Positions 5,343 to 54,117 of a DNA stretch of 64,000 bases are shown here, piece after piece. The translations under genes and the position numbers were made by a program. The notes under the pieces were generated by a model. It searched no databases and was not told where the DNA came from. It saw nothing but the letters and a program-made list of their open reading frames with translations. The DNA comes from Capsulimonadaceae bacterium (GTDB taxonomy: Bacteria; Armatimonadota; Armatimonadia; Armatimonadales; Capsulimonadaceae): positions 124,001 through 188,000 of the forward strand of contig JARLGU010000053.1 of NCBI GenBank assembly GCA_031292625.1, written 5' to 3'. Numbering within the stretch: the stretch's first letter is position 1; each line of letters begins with the position of its first letter.

Positions 5343-6497
5343 ATGAGCACCGCCGACAACGCACACTTTCGCACTCCCGTCATCAGCGTCACGGACCTCT
5401 ACCACCCATTCCAGGATCCCGGCGACAATATCGACCTGATCGCGGCCTACGCGCTGCCCGAAGTCGATCTCAAAGCCGTCGTCCTCGATTGCACGCAAAC
5501 ATTTCGCGACCCCGTCTCCCAGCCTTCCGATACGGCTCTATCGGTGGACCGCAACGGTCCGCGAGACCCTGGGATTATCCCGGTGTGCCAGCTCAACGCC
5601 ATCTTTGACCGCAACGTCCCCTATGGCGCAGCGCCGTACCGCGCCATGCGGACGCCGGAGGACCGCTTTGACGACGCGCCGCGCTTCCAGCAACGCGGGA
5701 TCGAGCTCATCATCGAGACGCTCGAGCAAACCGATGAGCCGGTGCACATCATGTCGTTCGGTTCGGCCCGCGCTATCGCCGGCGCGTATAACCGGCGTCC
5801 CGATCTGTTCGACGGCGGCAAGGCGATCATCGAGTTATCCGCCGGCGCATCGTCGCCTGACTTCCGCGAATGGAACACCGGGCTCGATCCTCACGCGATT
5901 GTCCGTCTGCTGCGTTCGCCGCTCTGCGTCAACATTTACCCCTGCGCCACGGCTTCGGGGCCTTTCGATGCGGGAACCGGCAATACGTTCTATCGCCTGC
6001 CGAGCCTCAGCTTTATCGAGGAAATGGAGCCCAGGCTGCGCCGCTACCTTCGCTATGCGCTCGGCCGGGTGACGCGCAACGATTTTCTGAGGGCGATGGA
6101 AGTCGACTGGGAATGCGAGGAAGCTGCCGCGCACATGGCACGCGAGCACAGCGTCTGGGAGACGCAACTCTGGATGCACGTATCAAACCGCGCACTCGTC
6201 CGGCGGGCCGGTGAACGCTGGGCGATCGCTCCACGAACCAGCATATCGGCTTCGGACGAAGTTTTAGAGCAAAGCCTGATCCCCTGCCGCGTCAATGTTT
6301 TCGACGACGGACGATACCAACTCCATCCGCTCGCCGCAACGGTCCAGGTCGCTGAAGAAGGCGGGAGCCTTGTTGTCCCGCAGGCCAAGCCGGGGGTAAC
6401 ATCTGCTAAGCGCTGCTATTATCGTCCGCATCCCGCGCTGCAGGAAGCGGCGTTCGCGGAGGCGCTTCCAGATCTTTACAAGAGCTTCGCGCCATAG
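5343..6497 (+). CDS. nucleoside hydrolase-like protein (inosine-uridine hydrolase fold)
   Basis: 384 residues from the ATG at 5343. The N-terminus VISVTDLYHPFQDPGDNIDL occupies the place of the calcium-binding DTDxxxDD motif of nucleoside hydrolases, but with an insertion and changed spacing. Further on, HIMSFGSARAIAGAYNRRPD resembles the family's segment on neighbouring-nucleoside sets, and EWNTGLDPHAIVRLLRSPL matches the region EFN..DPEAA..V in family members. Members cleave the N-glycosidic bond of nucleosides. With the altered metal motif the substrate, or even catalysis, is uncertain. A longer frame opens at 5163 but overlaps the cdaA promoter, and its first 60 residues are low in family character. 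The gene's stop overlaps the next start by one base (TAGTG). Confidence 0.7.
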   Translation: MSTADNAHFRTPVISVTDLYHPFQDPGDNIDLIAAYALPEVDLKAVVLDCTQTFRDPVSQPSDTALSVDRNGPRDPGIIPVCQLNAIFDRNVPYGAAPYRAMRTPEDRFDDAPRFQQRGIELIIETLEQTDEPVHIMSFGSARAIAGAYNRRPDLFDGGKAIIELSAGASSPDFREWNTGLDPHAIVRLLRSPLCVNIYPCATASGPFDAGTGNTFYRLPSLSFIEEMEPRLRRYLRYALGRVTRNDFLRAMEVDWECEEAAAHMAREHSVWETQLWMHVSNRALVRRAGERWAIAPRTSISASDEVLEQSLIPCRVNVFDDGRYQLHPLAATVQVAEEGGSLVVPQAKPGVTSAKRCYYRPHPALQEAAFAEALPDLYKSFAP

Positions 6498-13195: not shown

Positions 13196-14794
13196 ATGGC
13201 GGAAGACAACGGAAAGCAGACGGATCAGACGACTGGCGGCGACGTGCTGCCGGACGTCGCTCGGCACCGGTGGTGGATCCTCGTCGGTCTCGTTCTGGCG
13301 GCGGCGTTGGAGATCCTGGATACGACCGTCGTGAATGTCGCTCTGCCGCAGATGGCCGGCAACCTGAGCGCATCCACCGATGAAATCGCGTGGGTCAGCA
13401 CGGGCTATATTCTGTCGAACATTGTGGTCCTGCCAATGACCGCGTTTCTTTCGTCGCACTTTGGGCGCAAGAAATACCTCATCGCCTCGCTCATCATTTT
13501 CAACGTCGCGCGGTTTATGTGCGGCCTCTCACATTCCTTGGGGGAGATCGTTTTTTGGCGCCTCGTCCAGGGCGCGGGCGGCGCGGCATTGATCTCCACG
13601 GCGCAGTCGACCATCGTCGAGATATTCCCGCGAAACCAAACGGCCATGGTGCAGGCGATCTTCAGCCTCGGCCTGGTCGTTACTCCCACGCTCGGGCCAG
13701 CGCTAGGCGGCTATATCACCGACAATTATTCGTGGCAGACCATCTTCTTTATCCACATTCCAATCGGTCTAGCCTGCCTGCTTTTGGTCGGCATGTACCT
13801 GCAGGATTCTGTTCACCAAACCCGCGCTGCAACAATCGACGTCGCCGGGATATTGCTGCTTGCCAGTGGAATGGGCTCTCTGCAATATGTTCTTGAAGAG
13901 GGGGAGCGCTACGGCTGGTTTGAAGATGTCTGGATCAGCCGCCTGACCGTCATTGCGGTCGTCTCGCTCGTGGCCTTCGTGATTTGGGAACTCTCGCGCC
14001 GCAACACGCATCCCGTCCTGGATCTGCGCGTGCTCAAGGATCGCGGGCTCGCGGCGGCGGTGATCATTGCCGGCGCGCTCGGTTTCGGGCTTTACGGAGG
14101 CGTCTTTATCTATCCGCTCTTTGCTCAAACCGTCCTCGGCTTCACGCCGACGGCGACGGGCATTCTGCTGATTCCAGGCGGGCTTGCGACGGCGCTCGGC
14201 TCCCTGATCTGCGGACGGGTGCTGGCAAAAGGCGCGGACCCTCGCCATTTGATCACGATCGGCATGGTGATCTACATCGTATCGATGTGGATGCTTGGGC
14301 ACCTGACGCCGCAAAGCGGCGAAATGGACGCGCAGGCGGGATTGCTGGTTCGGGGCCTGGGGTTGGGCTTTATGTTCGTGCCAATGTCGGTCGCCGCGTT
14401 CGCAGGGCTCAAGGGCGCGGCAATCGCGCAAGGATCAGCCCTCTTCAACCTGATGCGTCAGATGGGCGGATCGTTCGGCATCGCGATCCTTACGACCTAC
14501 GTGGTCGACCAGACACACTACCACCGATCGAACCTGGTCGGAGCGCTCTATTCCGGGCGCATTGAATACCTGCAGCGGATCACGGGGCTTACCGCCCACA
14601 TGATGCGAGGCGGCTATACGCTGCCAATGGCGCGCTCCGCGGCGTTCGGCACGATGAACCGGCTAATCCAGGCGCAGTCGGCGACGATGGCCTATAACGA
14701 CGGCTTCCTGCTATTGGGCATCATATTCGTCGTCGCTTTGCCGGTCATATTTCTCCTCCGGCGCCCCCAGCGCGCCCCCGTTCCGGCCAGATAG
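13196..14794 (+). CDS. MFS drug exporter, DHA2 (EmrB/QacA) family
   Basis: 532 residues, about 14 transmembrane helices. The family signature LEILDTTVVNVALPQMAGNL in the first helix and the motif A loop SSHFGRKKYL are clear; GGYITDNYSWQTIFFIHIPI is the conserved helix 5 to 6 motif C region. Such proteins use the proton gradient to expel drugs, detergents or metabolites. It is a paralogue of the TetR-controlled exporter at 20367-21953. CGGAG lies 5 bases before the ATG. There is no adaptor (EmrA) or outer-membrane factor nearby. Roughly 280 bp upstream, to the lacI operators, show no other gene. Confidence 0.93.
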   Translation: MAEDNGKQTDQTTGGDVLPDVARHRWWILVGLVLAAALEILDTTVVNVALPQMAGNLSASTDEIAWVSTGYILSNIVVLPMTAFLSSHFGRKKYLIASLIIFNVARFMCGLSHSLGEIVFWRLVQGAGGAALISTAQSTIVEIFPRNQTAMVQAIFSLGLVVTPTLGPALGGYITDNYSWQTIFFIHIPIGLACLLLVGMYLQDSVHQTRAATIDVAGILLLASGMGSLQYVLEEGERYGWFEDVWISRLTVIAVVSLVAFVIWELSRRNTHPVLDLRVLKDRGLAAAVIIAGALGFGLYGGVFIYPLFAQTVLGFTPTATGILLIPGGLATALGSLICGRVLAKGADPRHLITIGMVIYIVSMWMLGHLTPQSGEMDAQAGLLVRGLGLGFMFVPMSVAAFAGLKGAAIAQGSALFNLMRQMGGSFGIAILTTYVVDQTHYHRSNLVGALYSGRIEYLQRITGLTAHMMRGGYTLPMARSAAFGTMNRLIQAQSATMAYNDGFLLLGIIFVVALPVIFLLRRPQRAPVPAR

Positions 14795-17564: not shown

Positions 17565-18446
17565 GTGTTTTGCCCACGATGCCGCAAGCACTGGATCGTC
17601 GATAGAAAGAACCGGAGATCGTCGACGCAGCCGCCAGAGGCCTGCCCAGAATGCGGCGTCCCGCTTGCGACAGACAAGACCGAGGCCGAGTTCCCAGCAG
17701 CCGATCTGCTTGCGTATTCGAGCCATCCCCCCCTCACCGTGCGTCAAGTCCTGAAGGAAACGTCCGACGCGCCGTACAATGTCGTGTCCGGTCCTGACGC
17801 CGATGAGAAGCCAGCCGACGATATCCGGCGATTCTCGATCTCCAACATGGTTTTCGCGGCAACGTGGCGTCTATTCTACGTCGATCGGGCACGCGCCGGC
17901 GCGATCATCGGACTTGCGATCATGACGGTAACCTCCGCGTTGCTGATCGATCATATGCAAACATCGCTGCCGCCGCCGCCGCCAACCCGGGCTCAAATCG
18001 CATCCGTGCTGCAGGGTTCTCTTGGAAGCTGGCGAGGCGCTGGCGGTCTGTATGCACGAATGCAGTCAAACGGCGCGCATGGGGTGGCAACCGCGACCTA
18101 CCAGAACGGCTCGTCGCGAGCGGAGATGTGGGTGCAATGGACGAACACCGGTAAGAATGCGGTCCAGGAACTGTGGAATCCTTACTGCCGCGAAACCCCA
18201 GGCGTTTTGAGCCCGGCAGGATCGCAACCGATTGGGGACGCGCGGGTGATGATTGGAAAGCGCGAATGCCGTGTTCTAAATGCAAGCGAAAGCGCGGCTG
18301 GAAAAGTGCGAGTCATTCCGACGGCGTTGATTCCGACGGATCAGTTATGTTCGGTGACGTGGCTTGACGGACGTTTCCTCGTTACGGCGGCGGGCAGACC
18401 GGCCGATGCGCTGTCACTCGCTCAAGCGGCGATTCGGGAGGAATAG
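17565..18446 (+). CDS. zinc-ribbon membrane protein of unknown function
   Basis: 293 residues from GTG 17565, which has GGGAG 8 bases upstream. The N-terminus carries a treble-clef-like zinc ribbon, FCPRC (Cys3, Cys6) and ACPECG about 25 residues later. A cytoplasmic linker follows and then one transmembrane helix at about 115-132 (AGAIIGLAIMTVTSALLI), a run of prolines, and an extracytoplasmic domain of about 155 residues with several cysteines (YCRETPG, KRECRVLN, QLCSVTW). I do not recognise the outer domain. It follows phnE by 118 bp on the same strand, so a link to that transporter is possible but unproven. Confidence 0.7.
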   Translation: MFCPRCRKHWIVDRKNRRSSTQPPEACPECGVPLATDKTEAEFPAADLLAYSSHPPLTVRQVLKETSDAPYNVVSGPDADEKPADDIRRFSISNMVFAATWRLFYVDRARAGAIIGLAIMTVTSALLIDHMQTSLPPPPPTRAQIASVLQGSLGSWRGAGGLYARMQSNGAHGVATATYQNGSSRAEMWVQWTNTGKNAVQELWNPYCRETPGVLSPAGSQPIGDARVMIGKRECRVLNASESAAGKVRVIPTALIPTDQLCSVTWLDGRFLVTAAGRPADALSLAQAAIREE

Positions 18447-18574: not shown

Positions 18575-18916
18575 GTGATCAAACTCAGCGCTAGCGAGCT
18601 TGCGGACCACATTTCCCGGTTGCCAGGGTGGAAACAGGACGACGACGCAATCGTAAAAAGCTTCAGCTTTCCGGACTTCGCCCGCGCAATGGAGTTCGTC
18701 AACCAGGTCGCCGAAAATGCGGAATCGGTGCAGCACCACCCCGATATCGACATTCGTTACTGCACGGTTACGCTACGCCTAACAACGCACCACGCGGGTG
18801 GATTAACGGCGCTGGACATCGAGTTCGCGGCATCGGCGGACGATCTCGCGGACCTGGCTCAACTCGCGATTTCGGGCCAGCCTGGTTCCGTCGTGGAGAT
18901 CGACGAAACCGCCTAG
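18575..18916 (+). CDS. phhB: 4a-hydroxytetrahydrobiopterin dehydratase (PCD/DCoH)
   Basis: 113 residues from GTG 18575, preceded by AGGGGAG at good spacing; a longer frame opens at 18488 but adds an uncharacteristic 29 residues. The hallmark is QHHPDIDIRYCTVTLRLTTH with the catalytic histidines, followed by GGLTALDIEFA, and RLPGWK near the N-terminus. PCD dehydrates the carbinolamine pterin made by aromatic amino acid hydroxylases. None is encoded here, and bacteria lacking them often keep PCD-like proteins for molybdopterin or other pterin use. It ends convergently over the TrkA-like gene by 4 bases. Confidence 0.92.
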   Translation: MIKLSASELADHISRLPGWKQDDDAIVKSFSFPDFARAMEFVNQVAENAESVQHHPDIDIRYCTVTLRLTTHHAGGLTALDIEFAASADDLADLAQLAISGQPGSVVEIDETA

Positions 18917-19575
18917 CCCGCCTCCGTAAACACCGATCGCAGACTCGACTCGTCCTGCGTCGAGACCAATGCGATAACGCTGTCCCCCGGCATGAAACGT
19001 GTATCACCCTGCGGAAGCAGCGCGTTCTCATCGCGAATGATCGAGATGATCAGCGCGCGGTCCGGCAGACCGATGTCCTTGACCGGCCGGCCCAGCACCG
19101 GGGAGTTCTCCGAGATATTGATGGTTACGATCTCGATGTTTCCCTTGCGCAACGCCCCGATGGGAATGATCTGGCCAGGCTCGATCTGCTGGTCGATCAT
19201 GTTGTAAATGAGCGCCGTGCTTGAGACGGATGTGTCGATGCCCAGTTTACTGAACAAATCCTCATTAATCGGGTTGTTCACTCGAGCGATCGTGCGCGGC
19301 ACCGAGAATTGGCGCTTTGCCATCTGGCAAACGACAAGATTGTCCTCGTCGTCGCCGGTTACCGCGACAATCGTGTCCGCTCGCCCAAATCCCGCCTCGG
19401 ACATCACGCGGATCTCGCATCCATCGCCCTGCATTACGACGTCGCCGAGTTCCTCGACAAGCATGGCGGCGCGGCGCCGATCCTTCTCCATGAGCAGCAC
19501 TTCGTGCCCCTCGTTCATCAGACGCTTTGAAAGGTAGTAGCCTACCTTGCCAGCACCTACGACGATAACATACAT
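18913..19575 (-). CDS. TrkA-like RCK protein with N- and C-domains (CeoC-like)
   Basis: 220 residues from ATG 19573-19575. The Rossmann NAD-binding motif is VIVVGAGKVGYYLSKRL with the acidic residue in LLMEKD, and the RCK_N core continues with AVTGDDEDNLVVCQMAKR. From about residue 135 there is an RCK_C domain (NIEIVTINISENSPVLGRPV, then PGDSVIALVS). These are cytoplasmic subunits gating Trk/Ktr potassium uptake. It lies 105 bp downstream of a second TrkA-like gene; such tandem pairs are known in Actinobacteria (CeoB/CeoC). No TrkH/KtrB membrane partner is in this window. Confidence 0.9.
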   Translation of the reverse strand: MYVIVVGAGKVGYYLSKRLMNEGHEVLLMEKDRRRAAMLVEELGDVVMQGDGCEIRVMSEAGFGRADTIVAVTGDDEDNLVVCQMAKRQFSVPRTIARVNNPINEDLFSKLGIDTSVSSTALIYNMIDQQIEPGQIIPIGALRKGNIEIVTINISENSPVLGRPVKDIGLPDRALIISIIRDENALLPQGDTRFMPGDSVIALVSTQDESSLRSVFTEAG

Positions 19576-19680
19576 AGTAAAAGTCCAATCTGTGAGCGCT
19601 CGTCCCGATCGCGCAAGATAGGCTGGACGGTATCCGGTCCATGCCTCTCTCGAAAGCGGCGGCGCTATTCGCATCAGGGG

Positions 19681-20154
19681 CTAACGTACGCTAATCTGTT
19701 CCCTGTATTCTCGATCCATGTCCTGCAAGATCGCCTCGACGGGCTTCATCCGGGGGTCGCCATCGATGCTGCTGCGCATGAGGCTCGTCGCGAGCGTCGT
19801 CGTGCAGAATGTTTCGATGCCAAGTTCACGGTAAGCCTCCGCGCGGATCGGATCGTAAATGCGGGCAATCACCTTCGTGACGTCAAAAACTCTTCGCGCG
19901 ATTTGAGCGGCCATGATATTCGTGTTGTCGCCCTGAGTGACGGCGACAAAGACATCCGCGGTTTCGATGCCAGCGCGGCGCAGGACATCCTGATCCATTC
20001 CGGTGCCGACGATCCGCTGAGCCTTAGGTTTGGGACCGAGTCTGCGAAACGCGTCGCCCGTCAGGTCGATAATCGTTACCGAGTGCCCTTCCTGACTGAG
20101 CTGTCGCGCCAGAGTCGAGCCGACTCTTCCGCAGCCGAGTATTAGTACATTCAT
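19681..20154 (-). CDS. TrkA-like RCK N-domain protein (CeoB-like)
   Basis: 157 residues from ATG 20152-20154. It contains a single RCK_N domain with the dinucleotide-binding motif VLILGCGRVGSTLARQL, the acidic strand end TIIDLTGD, and AVTQGDNTNIMAAQIARR. The region after about residue 125 is short and holds no RCK_C domain. It is probably a regulatory subunit of potassium transport acting with the adjacent two-domain protein. A consensus-like promoter lies just upstream, so this gene heads the pair. Confidence 0.88.
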   Translation of the reverse strand: MNVLILGCGRVGSTLARQLSQEGHSVTIIDLTGDAFRRLGPKPKAQRIVGTGMDQDVLRRAGIETADVFVAVTQGDNTNIMAAQIARRVFDVTKVIARIYDPIRAEAYRELGIETFCTTTLATSLMRSSIDGDPRMKPVEAILQDMDREYREQISVR

Positions 20155-20176
20155 TCCAGTGCCCTTTCGCCACGTT

Positions 20177-20205
20177 AGGATACTTGAAACGATATCCTTT
20201 GTCAA
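20177..20205 (-). promoter_or_regulatory. promoter of the TrkA-like gene pair
   Basis: On the minus strand a consensus TTGACA (20200-20205), a 17-bp spacer and TATCCT (20177-20182), 22 bases before the start codon. AGGATA/TATCCT also forms a short inverted repeat within it. Confidence 0.7.
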
Positions 20206-20366
20206 CGTACGTAATAGCAAGAATGCACGATTTGGAAAAGTAGTCGCGGAAGATAGGGAAAGCGCAAGACGTTGCCGACGGAGATTGGGCGCCAGGAAAG
20301 CGCTAATGCCGCTCGTCGAGCGAGATTGCAGCGCTGAACCATGCCACCTGCCTGGACGGTCCGCTG

Positions 20367-21953
20367 CTAGTGCGCGGCAATGTCGACGCTTCCAGTCATC
20401 GGGGCTCGCCGAAGCGCCGCTATCAAGGGTAGCATCCCGATAGAAAGAAGCGCCGTGACTAAAAACAGATCATTGAATGATAGGACAGCCGATTCACGAT
20501 GAATTAGCCCCAGGAGATTGGCGATCGCTGCCTCGCGCGCCGCCGTCGCACTCAGTCCATGCGTCTCCATCATCGTGCGAGCGTGGACGAGCCACGGTCC
20601 CCGCGCGACGTTCGCGATGTCCACCCGCGCGCACAAAGCATCGTTGTGGAACGATTCTCTCCGGGCGTAAAGCGTCGACAGCACCGCAATCCCAACGCTG
20701 CCTCCGAGTTGGCGAGTGAGATTGATAATTCCCGACCCCGCCCCCATCTGCGCTGGCTTTAGTTGAGACAGACTGGCAATCGTAAGCGGAATAAACAGGA
20801 ACCCGAGCGAAAAGCTCCGAAGATAGAGCCCAGGCAAAACCTCCTCCAGGGCCGTCACGGAGGTAAAGCAGGTCAGCAGGAGCGTTCCGGTCCCCAACAG
20901 GAACGTGCCGAGTACGAGAAATCGCCAAGCGCCGTACCGGGCAGTGAGCGGACCGGCGAGCATGAACGAAAAGGTCGATGCGAGTGCCGGCGCAAGCTGA
21001 ATAATGCCCGCCTGGTAGGCCGTATAGCCTCGCACCGTTTGCAAAAACACGGGCAGCAGAAAGGCGACCCCGTAAAGGCTGAAGCCAAGGAGCGCGCCGA
21101 ATGCGGCTCCCGAAGCCAAAGAGGGCAGACGGAACAGGCGAACGTCGAGGATTGGATGCTCCGTGCGCAGTTCGCGGATCACGAAGCCCACTAGGCTGAC
21201 CACCGTAACCGCCGCCAACCAGCAAATCATCCGCGACGACCACCAGTCTTCCTCTTGGCCTCGCTCAAGAACGGTCTGTAGGCTCCCCATTCCGGCAATC
21301 AGCAGCACGATGCCTGGGATATCAATCGGAGCATCGGCCGCGTTATGATCGTAATCCGCGTCTGGAACGTACATCACGGTCAGAATGGCGCTCACGAGGC
21401 CGAAGGGGACGTTGACCCAGAAAATCGCCGGCCACGAGTAGTTGTCGGTCAGATAGCCCCCCAACGTCGGCCCAAGCAACGGCCCCATCATCACGCCCAT
21501 CCCGAAAATCGCGGTCGCCATGCCGCGTTGACGCTCGGGGAACGCCTGCAACAAGATGACCTGTCCCGTTGCCAGCAACCCTCCGCCGCCCAGCCCCTGC
21601 ACGACGCGCCAGAAAATAAGCGCGGACAGCGACGTGGAAGCCGCGCAAAGGATGGACGCGAGCGTAAAGAGGATAATGGATGCCGCGAAATAGCGCTTCC
21701 TGCCGAAGCGATCCGATAGCCAGCCGGTCATCGGCAAAACGATAACGTTCGAGACGATATAACCGGTGGTGACCCAACCGATTTCGGAAAGGGTCGCGCC
21801 CAGGTTGCCCATCATCTGCGGAACCGCGACGCTGGTGATGGTCGTGTCCAGCACCTCGAGCATCGCGCCGGTCATGGCCGCGGCCACGATCCACCACCGC
21901 AACCGGGCAGCGCGACGCGCATCCATATCATTCGCCGGTGACAGATTGGCCAT
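20367..21953 (-). CDS. MFS drug exporter, DHA2 family, TetR-controlled
   Basis: 528 residues with about 14 membrane helices. The signature LEVLDTTITSVAVPQMMGNL and the motif A loop SDRFGRKRYF are clear, as is GGYLTDNYSWPAIFWVNVPF. It is paralogous to the exporter at 13196. GGAGG lies 7 bases before the ATG. A TetR gene is 100 bp upstream on the same strand, and a palindrome ATGAC-N5-GTCAT lies across the exporter's own -10 box, so induction by a toxic compound is the likely regulation. Confidence 0.93.
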   Translation of the reverse strand: MANLSPANDMDARRAARLRWWIVAAAMTGAMLEVLDTTITSVAVPQMMGNLGATLSEIGWVTTGYIVSNVIVLPMTGWLSDRFGRKRYFAASIILFTLASILCAASTSLSALIFWRVVQGLGGGGLLATGQVILLQAFPERQRGMATAIFGMGVMMGPLLGPTLGGYLTDNYSWPAIFWVNVPFGLVSAILTVMYVPDADYDHNAADAPIDIPGIVLLIAGMGSLQTVLERGQEEDWWSSRMICWLAAVTVVSLVGFVIRELRTEHPILDVRLFRLPSLASGAAFGALLGFSLYGVAFLLPVFLQTVRGYTAYQAGIIQLAPALASTFSFMLAGPLTARYGAWRFLVLGTFLLGTGTLLLTCFTSVTALEEVLPGLYLRSFSLGFLFIPLTIASLSQLKPAQMGAGSGIINLTRQLGGSVGIAVLSTLYARRESFHNDALCARVDIANVARGPWLVHARTMMETHGLSATAAREAAIANLLGLIHRESAVLSFNDLFLVTALLSIGMLPLIAALRRAPMTGSVDIAAH

Positions 21954-21995: not shown

Positions 21996-22014
21996 ATGAC
22001 GTCTTGTCATTATA
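21996..22014 (-). promoter_or_regulatory. exporter promoter -10 with TetR operator
   Basis: ATGAC-GTCTT-GTCAT (21996-22010) overlaps the minus-strand TATAAT (22009-22014). The same ATGAC-N5-GTCAT arrangement lies just 3' of the tetR -10 box, which identifies it as the likely TetR binding site. Confidence 0.78.
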
Positions 22015-22053
22015 ATAAGCGCCAAACAGCCCGAGCAGAGCTGTTCAAGACGC

Positions 22054-22698
22054 CTAAGCCTGCGTGACAGGCCGCTGCGCAAGAACTCCGTTTGCGATCA
22101 GCGCATGCAGCATCTCGCGAGCATCCGACCGGCTCGAAAACAGCGGGTCGCCTTCCTTGCAGATATCGAGCGCCATGGTGAACCCCATTGAGAGGCCCAT
22201 CTGAAGAACGGCGGCATCTCTAACCGGCATCGGACGGAACATATCTTCATCGATCCCCTGCTGAATATTACGGGCAATGCCATCGACAATACAACGCGTC
22301 TTCTCGTGCAGGCGATCGGACAATTCCTTGGGAATCGCCTCTTCGATTCCGAGTTTGTCGAGGATCAAAACGCCATAATACTCCGGGTGGTCGTCGTGAA
22401 ACTTCAGAAACGCATCATGGGCGCGCAAAAGGTTGGTGAGTGGGTCAACGTTGGGGTCATGGCTCTCTTCGATGAGGTTGAGCAGAAGGTCAAGTCCTTC
22501 GTCGAGCACGGTCGCGTAAATGGCTTCTTTGTTCTCGAAGTACAAATAGACTGTCCCGCGCGCGAGCTCGGTCATTTTCGCGATGTCGTCGATCGTGGTA
22601 TCGCGAAATCCCTGCTGTATAAAAAGAACCCGCGCCGCTTCGATAATATCGCGCCGCCGCCGTTCCTTCTCTCTTTGCCGCCGTTCCTCTGTACCCAT
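22054..22698 (-). CDS. TetR-family repressor
   Basis: 214 residues. The N-terminal helix-turn-helix reads TTIDDIAKMTELARGTVYLY followed by FENKEAIYATVLDEG, the most conserved part of the family; the rest is the helical ligand-binding and dimer domain. GAGG lies 7 bases before the ATG. It is transcribed toward the DHA2 exporter, and both genes carry the same palindrome at their promoters, so autoregulation with exporter control is likely. Confidence 0.94.
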   Translation of the reverse strand: MGTEERRQREKERRRRDIIEAARVLFIQQGFRDTTIDDIAKMTELARGTVYLYFENKEAIYATVLDEGLDLLLNLIEESHDPNVDPLTNLLRAHDAFLKFHDDHPEYYGVLILDKLGIEEAIPKELSDRLHEKTRCIVDGIARNIQQGIDEDMFRPMPVRDAAVLQMGLSMGFTMALDICKEGDPLFSSRSDAREMLHALIANGVLAQRPVTQA

Positions 22699-22714
22699 GA
22701 CGAGACCTCACTGA

Positions 22715-22729
22715 ATGACGCTATGTCAT
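22715..22729. promoter_or_regulatory. TetR operator at the tetR promoter
   Basis: ATGAC-GCTAT-GTCAT, directly downstream of the tetR -10 box and so covering the transcription start. Same half-sites and 5-bp gap as the site at 21996-22010. Confidence 0.78.
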
Positions 22730-22758
22730 AGTTTATCGCAAGCGGACCCAATTGTCAA
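22730..22758 (-). promoter_or_regulatory. tetR promoter
   Basis: On the minus strand a consensus TTGACA (22753-22758), a 17-bp spacer and TAAACT (22730-22735). Confidence 0.75.
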
Positions 22759-53148: not shown

Positions 53149-54117
53149 TCAAAGCCAGGGTTCGTGCTTTAGCGCTCTCACTGCGCAGGGGCCGAGCTTT
53201 CCCATGTGCGCTAGGACATACGTGACAAAGCCGCGGCACGTCATGCAATATGCAATGCCCTTCGCAAGAGCTTCGCGAGCCCCCTTGCTTTCACCGCGAC
53301 AGAGTTGATACATGCCTTTAGAAATAAGCGCATCGGCAAGCGCCCTTCGTACCGACGTCGCCAGCACGAACATGTCTGGGTCGCCAAGAATGCTTTCATA
53401 TCGAAAGATATGACCATCCGTCATATACTCGCCTCGAATTCGGCTCATGCCGCCAGCATGCAAACGATAGTTCATTAGACGCTCTGTTTCATAGTACGCA
53501 CCAGCTCCTGTTTTGGCGCACTGATAGTAAAGCCAGTAGTCTATCGCTCCGTTAGCCCGCTCGTCGATAAACGATGGCAATACCATACTGCGCCGAAAAA
53601 TGGTTGCTCCGACCGGGAAACTTAAGTTAATGAGACAGCATTCGCGCCAATCGGGGATTGTGCCGCACGCCAACTTGTCACGCCCGAAGTGCTTACTGGC
53701 TTCTTCTGTTTGAGCAACTGATCTAACGCCGCTTGCATCCATCACCCAATGATCGCACGTACTCAGGATCAGGCTACTATCCCGTACGAGTGGAGCAAGG
53801 AGTTGCTCAACGAACGTAGGCTCAAACGTATCGTCATCATGAAGTATGCAGAAAAATTCGCCGGTCGCCATCTCGATGCCTGTTCGCCAGTTGGCGGCGA
53901 TCCCGACGTTCACCGGTCGTCTAACGTAGCGTATCCGTGGATCAATAGCAAAGGCGCCAACAGTCGCAGCTGTTTCATCTGAACTGGCATCGTCAAGAAC
54001 CAGGATTTCCAAATTGCCGTACGTCTGATTTACTGCGCTTTTCAACGATTCTAAAAGCATACCGGCGCGATTATAGGTAGGCACGAGAATAGTAACACGA
54101 GGCGTAGGCTGAGACAA
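53149..54117 (-). CDS. GT2 glycosyltransferase in opposite orientation
   Basis: 322 residues. The core is VTILVPTYNRAGMLLESLKS, EILVLDDASSDETAA, RYVRRPVNVGIAANWRTGIE and DxD in CILHDDDTFEP. The C-terminus YRLHAGGMSRIRGEYMTDGH resembles the family member at 51390. The TTG start at 54115-54117 has AAGGAG 8 bases upstream. It is the only gene of this part of the locus on the minus strand, between two plus-strand blocks, which suggests insertion or inversion. Confidence 0.9.
   Translation of the reverse strand: MSQPTPRVTILVPTYNRAGMLLESLKSAVNQTYGNLEILVLDDASSDETAATVGAFAIDPRIRYVRRPVNVGIAANWRTGIEMATGEFFCILHDDDTFEPTFVEQLLAPLVRDSSLILSTCDHWVMDASGVRSVAQTEEASKHFGRDKLACGTIPDWRECCLINLSFPVGATIFRRSMVLPSFIDERANGAIDYWLYYQCAKTGAGAYYETERLMNYRLHAGGMSRIRGEYMTDGHIFRYESILGDPDMFVLATSVRRALADALISKGMYQLCRGESKGAREALAKGIAYCMTCRGFVTYVLAHMGKLGPCAVRALKHEPWL

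Follow-up and report, generated by a model that had tools for sequence, protein, structure and literature searches.

The window analysed here (the whole 64,000-nucleotide stretch of a contig from a Capsulimonadaceae bacterium) contains on its minus strand a gene for a TetR-family repressor (tetR, 214 aa, positions 22054..22698) followed by a gene for a DHA2/EmrB-type MFS efflux transporter (528 aa, 20367..21953). The TetR protein matches Pfam TetR_N (PF00440) with 54.6 bits against a cut-off of 24 and has its helix-turn-helix (HTH) near residues 18-62, and no NCBIfam equivalog model reaches its cut-off with it. An AlphaFold model built from three sequences predicts nine helices in an all-helical TetR fold with a mean pLDDT of 85.1, and the best Foldseek match of this model is the TetR-family protein 3him_A (TM-score 0.75 by query length and 0.83); among solved structures, 1rkt is the nearest by sequence to the TetR profile (E 1e-18). 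The transporter scores 414.4 bits with TIGR00711 (cut-off 230.2) and 211 bits with MFS_1, and its DHA2/EmrB family would make a drug the expected substrate. No EmrA-type membrane-fusion partner of the kind that an EmrAB pump has was found among ORFs of 80 aa or longer between window positions 18000 and 27000, where six ORFs were also searched with hmmscan, and PADLOC gave no match. Two neighbouring TrkA-type genes come immediately after the exporter (18913-20220, one with TrkA_N and TrkA_C and the other with TrkA_N only; such genes are potassium-uptake regulators), and MgtC and ProRS genes lie upstream of tetR; the conserved unit is the tetR-exporter pair itself. A second DHA2/EmrB-type exporter, 41% identical to this one, is encoded several kb away on the opposite strand (13196-14794), and at E 1e-60 the genome has 10 such exporters, including the one studied.

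The tetR promoter has a -35 TTGACA (22753..22758, minus strand) and, after a 17-bp spacer, a -10 TAAACT (22730..22735), which abuts a putative operator that comes directly after it (operator 1, 22715..22729, plus-strand sequence ATGACGCTATGTCAT, minus-strand 15-mer ATGACATAGCGTCAT). At the exporter promoter a -10 TATAAT (22009..22014, minus strand) overlaps by two bases a second site (operator 2, 21996..22010, plus-strand sequence ATGACGTCTTGTCAT), which has equivalents in all three relatives described below; no -35 is recognisable there, the best candidate being TGCTCG. The first-pass annotation had reported a pair of ATGAC-N5-GTCAT palindromes at these positions, and both 15-mers are indeed exact matches. 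It had also described operator 2 as merely touching TATAAT, which the two-base overlap corrects, and had given the two operators one common position with respect to the -10; this is true roughly and not precisely, since the offset differs by 2 bp.

A predicted intrinsic terminator of tetR (22017..22055, minus strand, core stem 22022-22048) lies between the two genes, and its hairpin (-20.7 kcal/mol, z -4.55) was matched in stability by none of 200 shuffles. It covers the spacer, the -35 position and the region upstream of these at the exporter promoter, and its T-rich tail enters TATAAT; the exporter promoter may thus be without a -35 here because the hairpin occupies that place.

Could the two palindromes simply happen to match? 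When the two intergenic gaps were dinucleotide-shuffled, and any palindrome sequence with any equal gap from 0 to 12 was counted, 20,000 shuffled pairs yielded a single case of a 5-bp palindrome common to both members. The first-pass annotation had proposed a genome scan, and this finds the motif to be rare: there are five exact copies of ATGAC-N5-GTCAT in 5.77 Mb (65 contigs), of which two are those at tetR and the exporter, two lie on contig 47 and one lies elsewhere in the window. This last copy (53410-53424), which the first-pass annotation did not list, is within an ORF that we call glycosyltransferase-like from reading its translation, and it breaks the refinement of the motif given below. 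The five copies compare with about 3.6 expected, as computed from the base composition of the window, so the exact motif is genome-wide near its random level, which is the point in favour of chance; it is countered by the shuffles and by the presence of the core in all eight of the orthologous gaps (below), and a chance match is in our view barely credible. The conservation by itself already refutes coincidence at the two genes. With up to two mismatches allowed, the window shows no enrichment of the motif (18 sites, 23.2 expected); the signal lies in the exact co-located pair and its conservation. A genome scan allowing one mismatch found 78 sites, compared with 41 when the pattern was reversed, an excess to which we give no weight, since the reversed pattern differs in dinucleotide content.

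Orthologues of the TetR protein (53-56% identity) are present in three of the six other genomes of the family, two of the three being Capsulimonas sp. RYN_270 and Armatimonadetes bacterium bog_944; including the present genome, four of 291 genomes of the phylum carry one, and none further was found at E 1e-25. The HTH and recognition-helix region is nearly invariant across the four TetR proteins. In all four genomes an orthologous DHA2/EmrB-type exporter gene follows tetR in the same direction, and the exporters of the relatives are 52-55% identical to this one, compared with at most 42% for paralogous exporters matched over most of their length (one partial match reaches 48%). TGAC-N5-GTCA is present in every gap that precedes tetR or the exporter (8/8), so that the operator reported earlier as common to the two genes is kept at both of them at every orthologous locus. 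There are 10 sites in total, as two of the relatives (G002 and G003, both Capsulimonas-type) have two before the exporter, 51 and 52 bp apart, respectively; the sequence before tetR in the third relative (G001) includes an identical copy of the minus-strand 15-mer of operator 1. All 10 sites keep the TGAC and GTCA halves unchanged, and in each of them the first spacer base is a purine and the last a pyrimidine; the remaining spacer bases and the flanks vary. This gives the refined 13-bp motif TGAC-R-N3-Y-GTCA, expected 2e-4 to 8e-4 times per intergenic gap. These are not 10 independent events, because two of the genomes belong to one genus and the cores are identical within two pairs of sites (eight distinct core sequences among the 10); the four loci span three genera, and so represent three independent lineages.

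The position of the operator within the promoter varies among these loci. The core of the tetR operator starts one base past the -10 here (G000) and two bases past it in G001; in G002 and G003 the operator is instead in the spacer, between TTGACA and the best -10, and touches that -10, so the constant operator/-10 placement suggested by the first-pass annotation does not extend to them. What the four loci have in common is an operator inside the promoter, which is where a repressor acting by exclusion of RNA polymerase would be expected to bind.

Does the motif belong to this TetR, or might the palindromes be bound by a different regulator? Half-sites such as TGAC are common, and other intergenic sites do exist (the contig 47 pair, for example), both of which leave room for another protein. 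The motif nevertheless tracks the tetR orthologue: it is present at all four orthologous loci, and is missing at the four other TetR loci of this genome, at both loci of 36%-identical TetR paralogues in the relatives, at eight of eight paralogous exporter loci examined (a selection from a longer list of paralogues) and at 77 of 78 more distant TetR loci in named genomes, where the one exception fails the purine/pyrimidine rule. An alignment-based contig search gave 103 relatives, of which 80 were kept, including two of the orthologues already described; a single-protein query in the same kind of contig search found no relatives. We accordingly regard a different regulator as very unlikely, and keep this TetR as the probable ligand of the sites.

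In the seven genomes of the family WTGACRN3YGTCAW occurs 26 times, seven of them at tetR-exporter loci, and the surroundings of 15 of the other 19 sites were inspected, which is all but four sites of G003. Seven of these other sites are in the present genome: four are inside long ORFs, one falls within a hairpin close to the end of a gene, one coincides with a TTGACA that precedes a gene judged GntR-like from its translation, and one belongs to contig 47. There (L005), a pair of exact ATGAC-N5-GTCAT sites spaced by 75 bp (6313-6327 and 6388-6402) lies in the region where a 576-aa ORF starts, whose product has a signal-peptide-like N-terminus and matches no Pfam family. This pair was considered as a second target and is left unproven; only its upstream site fits the purine/pyrimidine rule, and the single relative of the ORF in the six other family genomes (G002, 30% identity) lies at a locus that, as fetched, has no site. 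Both Capsulimonas-type genomes have a TGAC-R-N3-Y-GTCA 60-70 bp before an ORF start (L028:746-758 and L029:1757-1769), the ORF after the latter encoding a GGDEF diguanylate cyclase; the core is kept in these two and the flanks and spacer differ, and an overlap with the stop codon of an HxlR-like gene weakens the case for them. A further site in G002 (L056:2724-2738, ATGACAATTTGTCAT) lies outside the tetR locus between two divergent ORFs and is a possible extra target. We do not claim a wider regulon from these sites.

Is the exporter transcribed from its own promoter? The two genes are codirectional and only 100 bp apart, the exporter promoter has no recognisable -35, and G001 has no stable hairpin between tetR and the exporter (z +1.2), so that read-through from tetR is possible in that genome; all of this would suit a single operon read from the tetR promoter, with operator 2 as a secondary or roadblock site. 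In the other two relatives a hairpin and a T-rich stretch follow tetR as they do here (-18.1 kcal/mol, z -3.2 in G003; -29.0 kcal/mol, z -2.9 in G002), and predicted terminators thus separate the two genes in three of the four genomes, which suggests that the exporter has its own promoter. The bases flanking the exporter sites also argue against a single operon: TAA directly precedes TGAC in five of the six (giving TAATGAC, an AAT-type -10 end fused to the operator) and TTA, which would complete the palindrome, stands to the right in two of all 10 sites, a bias more like that of a -10 element than of a longer palindrome. We judge the one-operon arrangement to be rather unlikely, and prefer separate promoters for the two genes.

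These observations are, with high probability, best explained by an autorepressed TetR-exporter module with operators at both promoters. A TetR dimer would bind TGAC-R-N3-Y-GTCA at two places, its own promoter, beside the -10, and the exporter promoter, overlapping the -10, and at both would keep RNA polymerase off the DNA. On entering the cell, a substrate of the exporter would fill the TetR pocket and cause the dimer to leave both sites, and the cell would then produce exporter and repressor together until it is rid of the compound. Judged from the genomic evidence, such a switch is well supported, ordinary and self-limiting.

What the inducer might be is hinted at by the Capsulimonas-type genomes, in which a glyoxalase/dioxygenase-superfamily gene and an MhqD-like esterase gene directly precede the tetR-exporter pair (G002 and G003), preceded in turn by a DoxX-family gene in G003, and an HxlR-like regulator gene is nearby. 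Genes of the glyoxalase, MhqD and DoxX types are linked to quinone detoxification in Bacillus. The best NCBIfam match of the esterase scanned, that of G003, is MhqD at 156.9 bits, which falls short of that model's cut-off (325). The quinone link is no more than an inducer hint, because stable predicted hairpins separate these units and neither G001 nor the present genome shows the association. It would fit a family-restricted TetR with an operator class of its own, TGAC-R-N3-Y-GTCA, that answers to quinone- or catechol-type compounds, a reading that we think improbable; as part of it, the paired exporter operators of G002 and G003, whose spacing is about five helical turns, could place TetR dimers on the same side of the helix.

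An autoregulated TetR with a neighbouring exporter is among the commonest arrangements in bacteria, so the present case does not change the general picture. What it supplies is an operator, supported by comparative genomics, for a TetR repressor of the Armatimonadota, and the 13-bp motif is a concrete handle for binding assays and regulon scans. The operator sequence was not found in print in open-licence PMC text, and among open-licence PMC articles on Capsulimonas or Armatimonad TetR proteins, efflux or repressors none concerned this tetR-exporter system by its title.

Among known systems, QacR/QacA and LfrR/LfrA likewise pair a local repressor with a DHA2/QacA-type exporter and rely on drug-induced release, and the QacR and LfrR operators differ from the site found here. 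The exporter also falls far below the cut-offs of the corresponding NCBIfam models (107.7 against 900 bits for QacA/B and 101.3 against 825 bits for LfrA). The solved structure 1rkt, YfiR of Bacillus subtilis, is that of a distant relative of this TetR, a likeness drawn by protein sequence alone. In DitR-mfsBC of Stenotrophomonas maltophilia a TetR-family repressor adjoins MFS transporter genes, and DitR boxes lie over the promoter, one of them between the -35 and the -10 (PMC9342713). That account also describes divergent genes, three likely binding sites and a response to diamide (PMC9342713), whereas tetR and the exporter are codirectional here; shared by the two systems, in a likeness of arrangement and not of compared box or protein sequences, are the TetR repressor, the MFS transporter and the boxes over the promoter.
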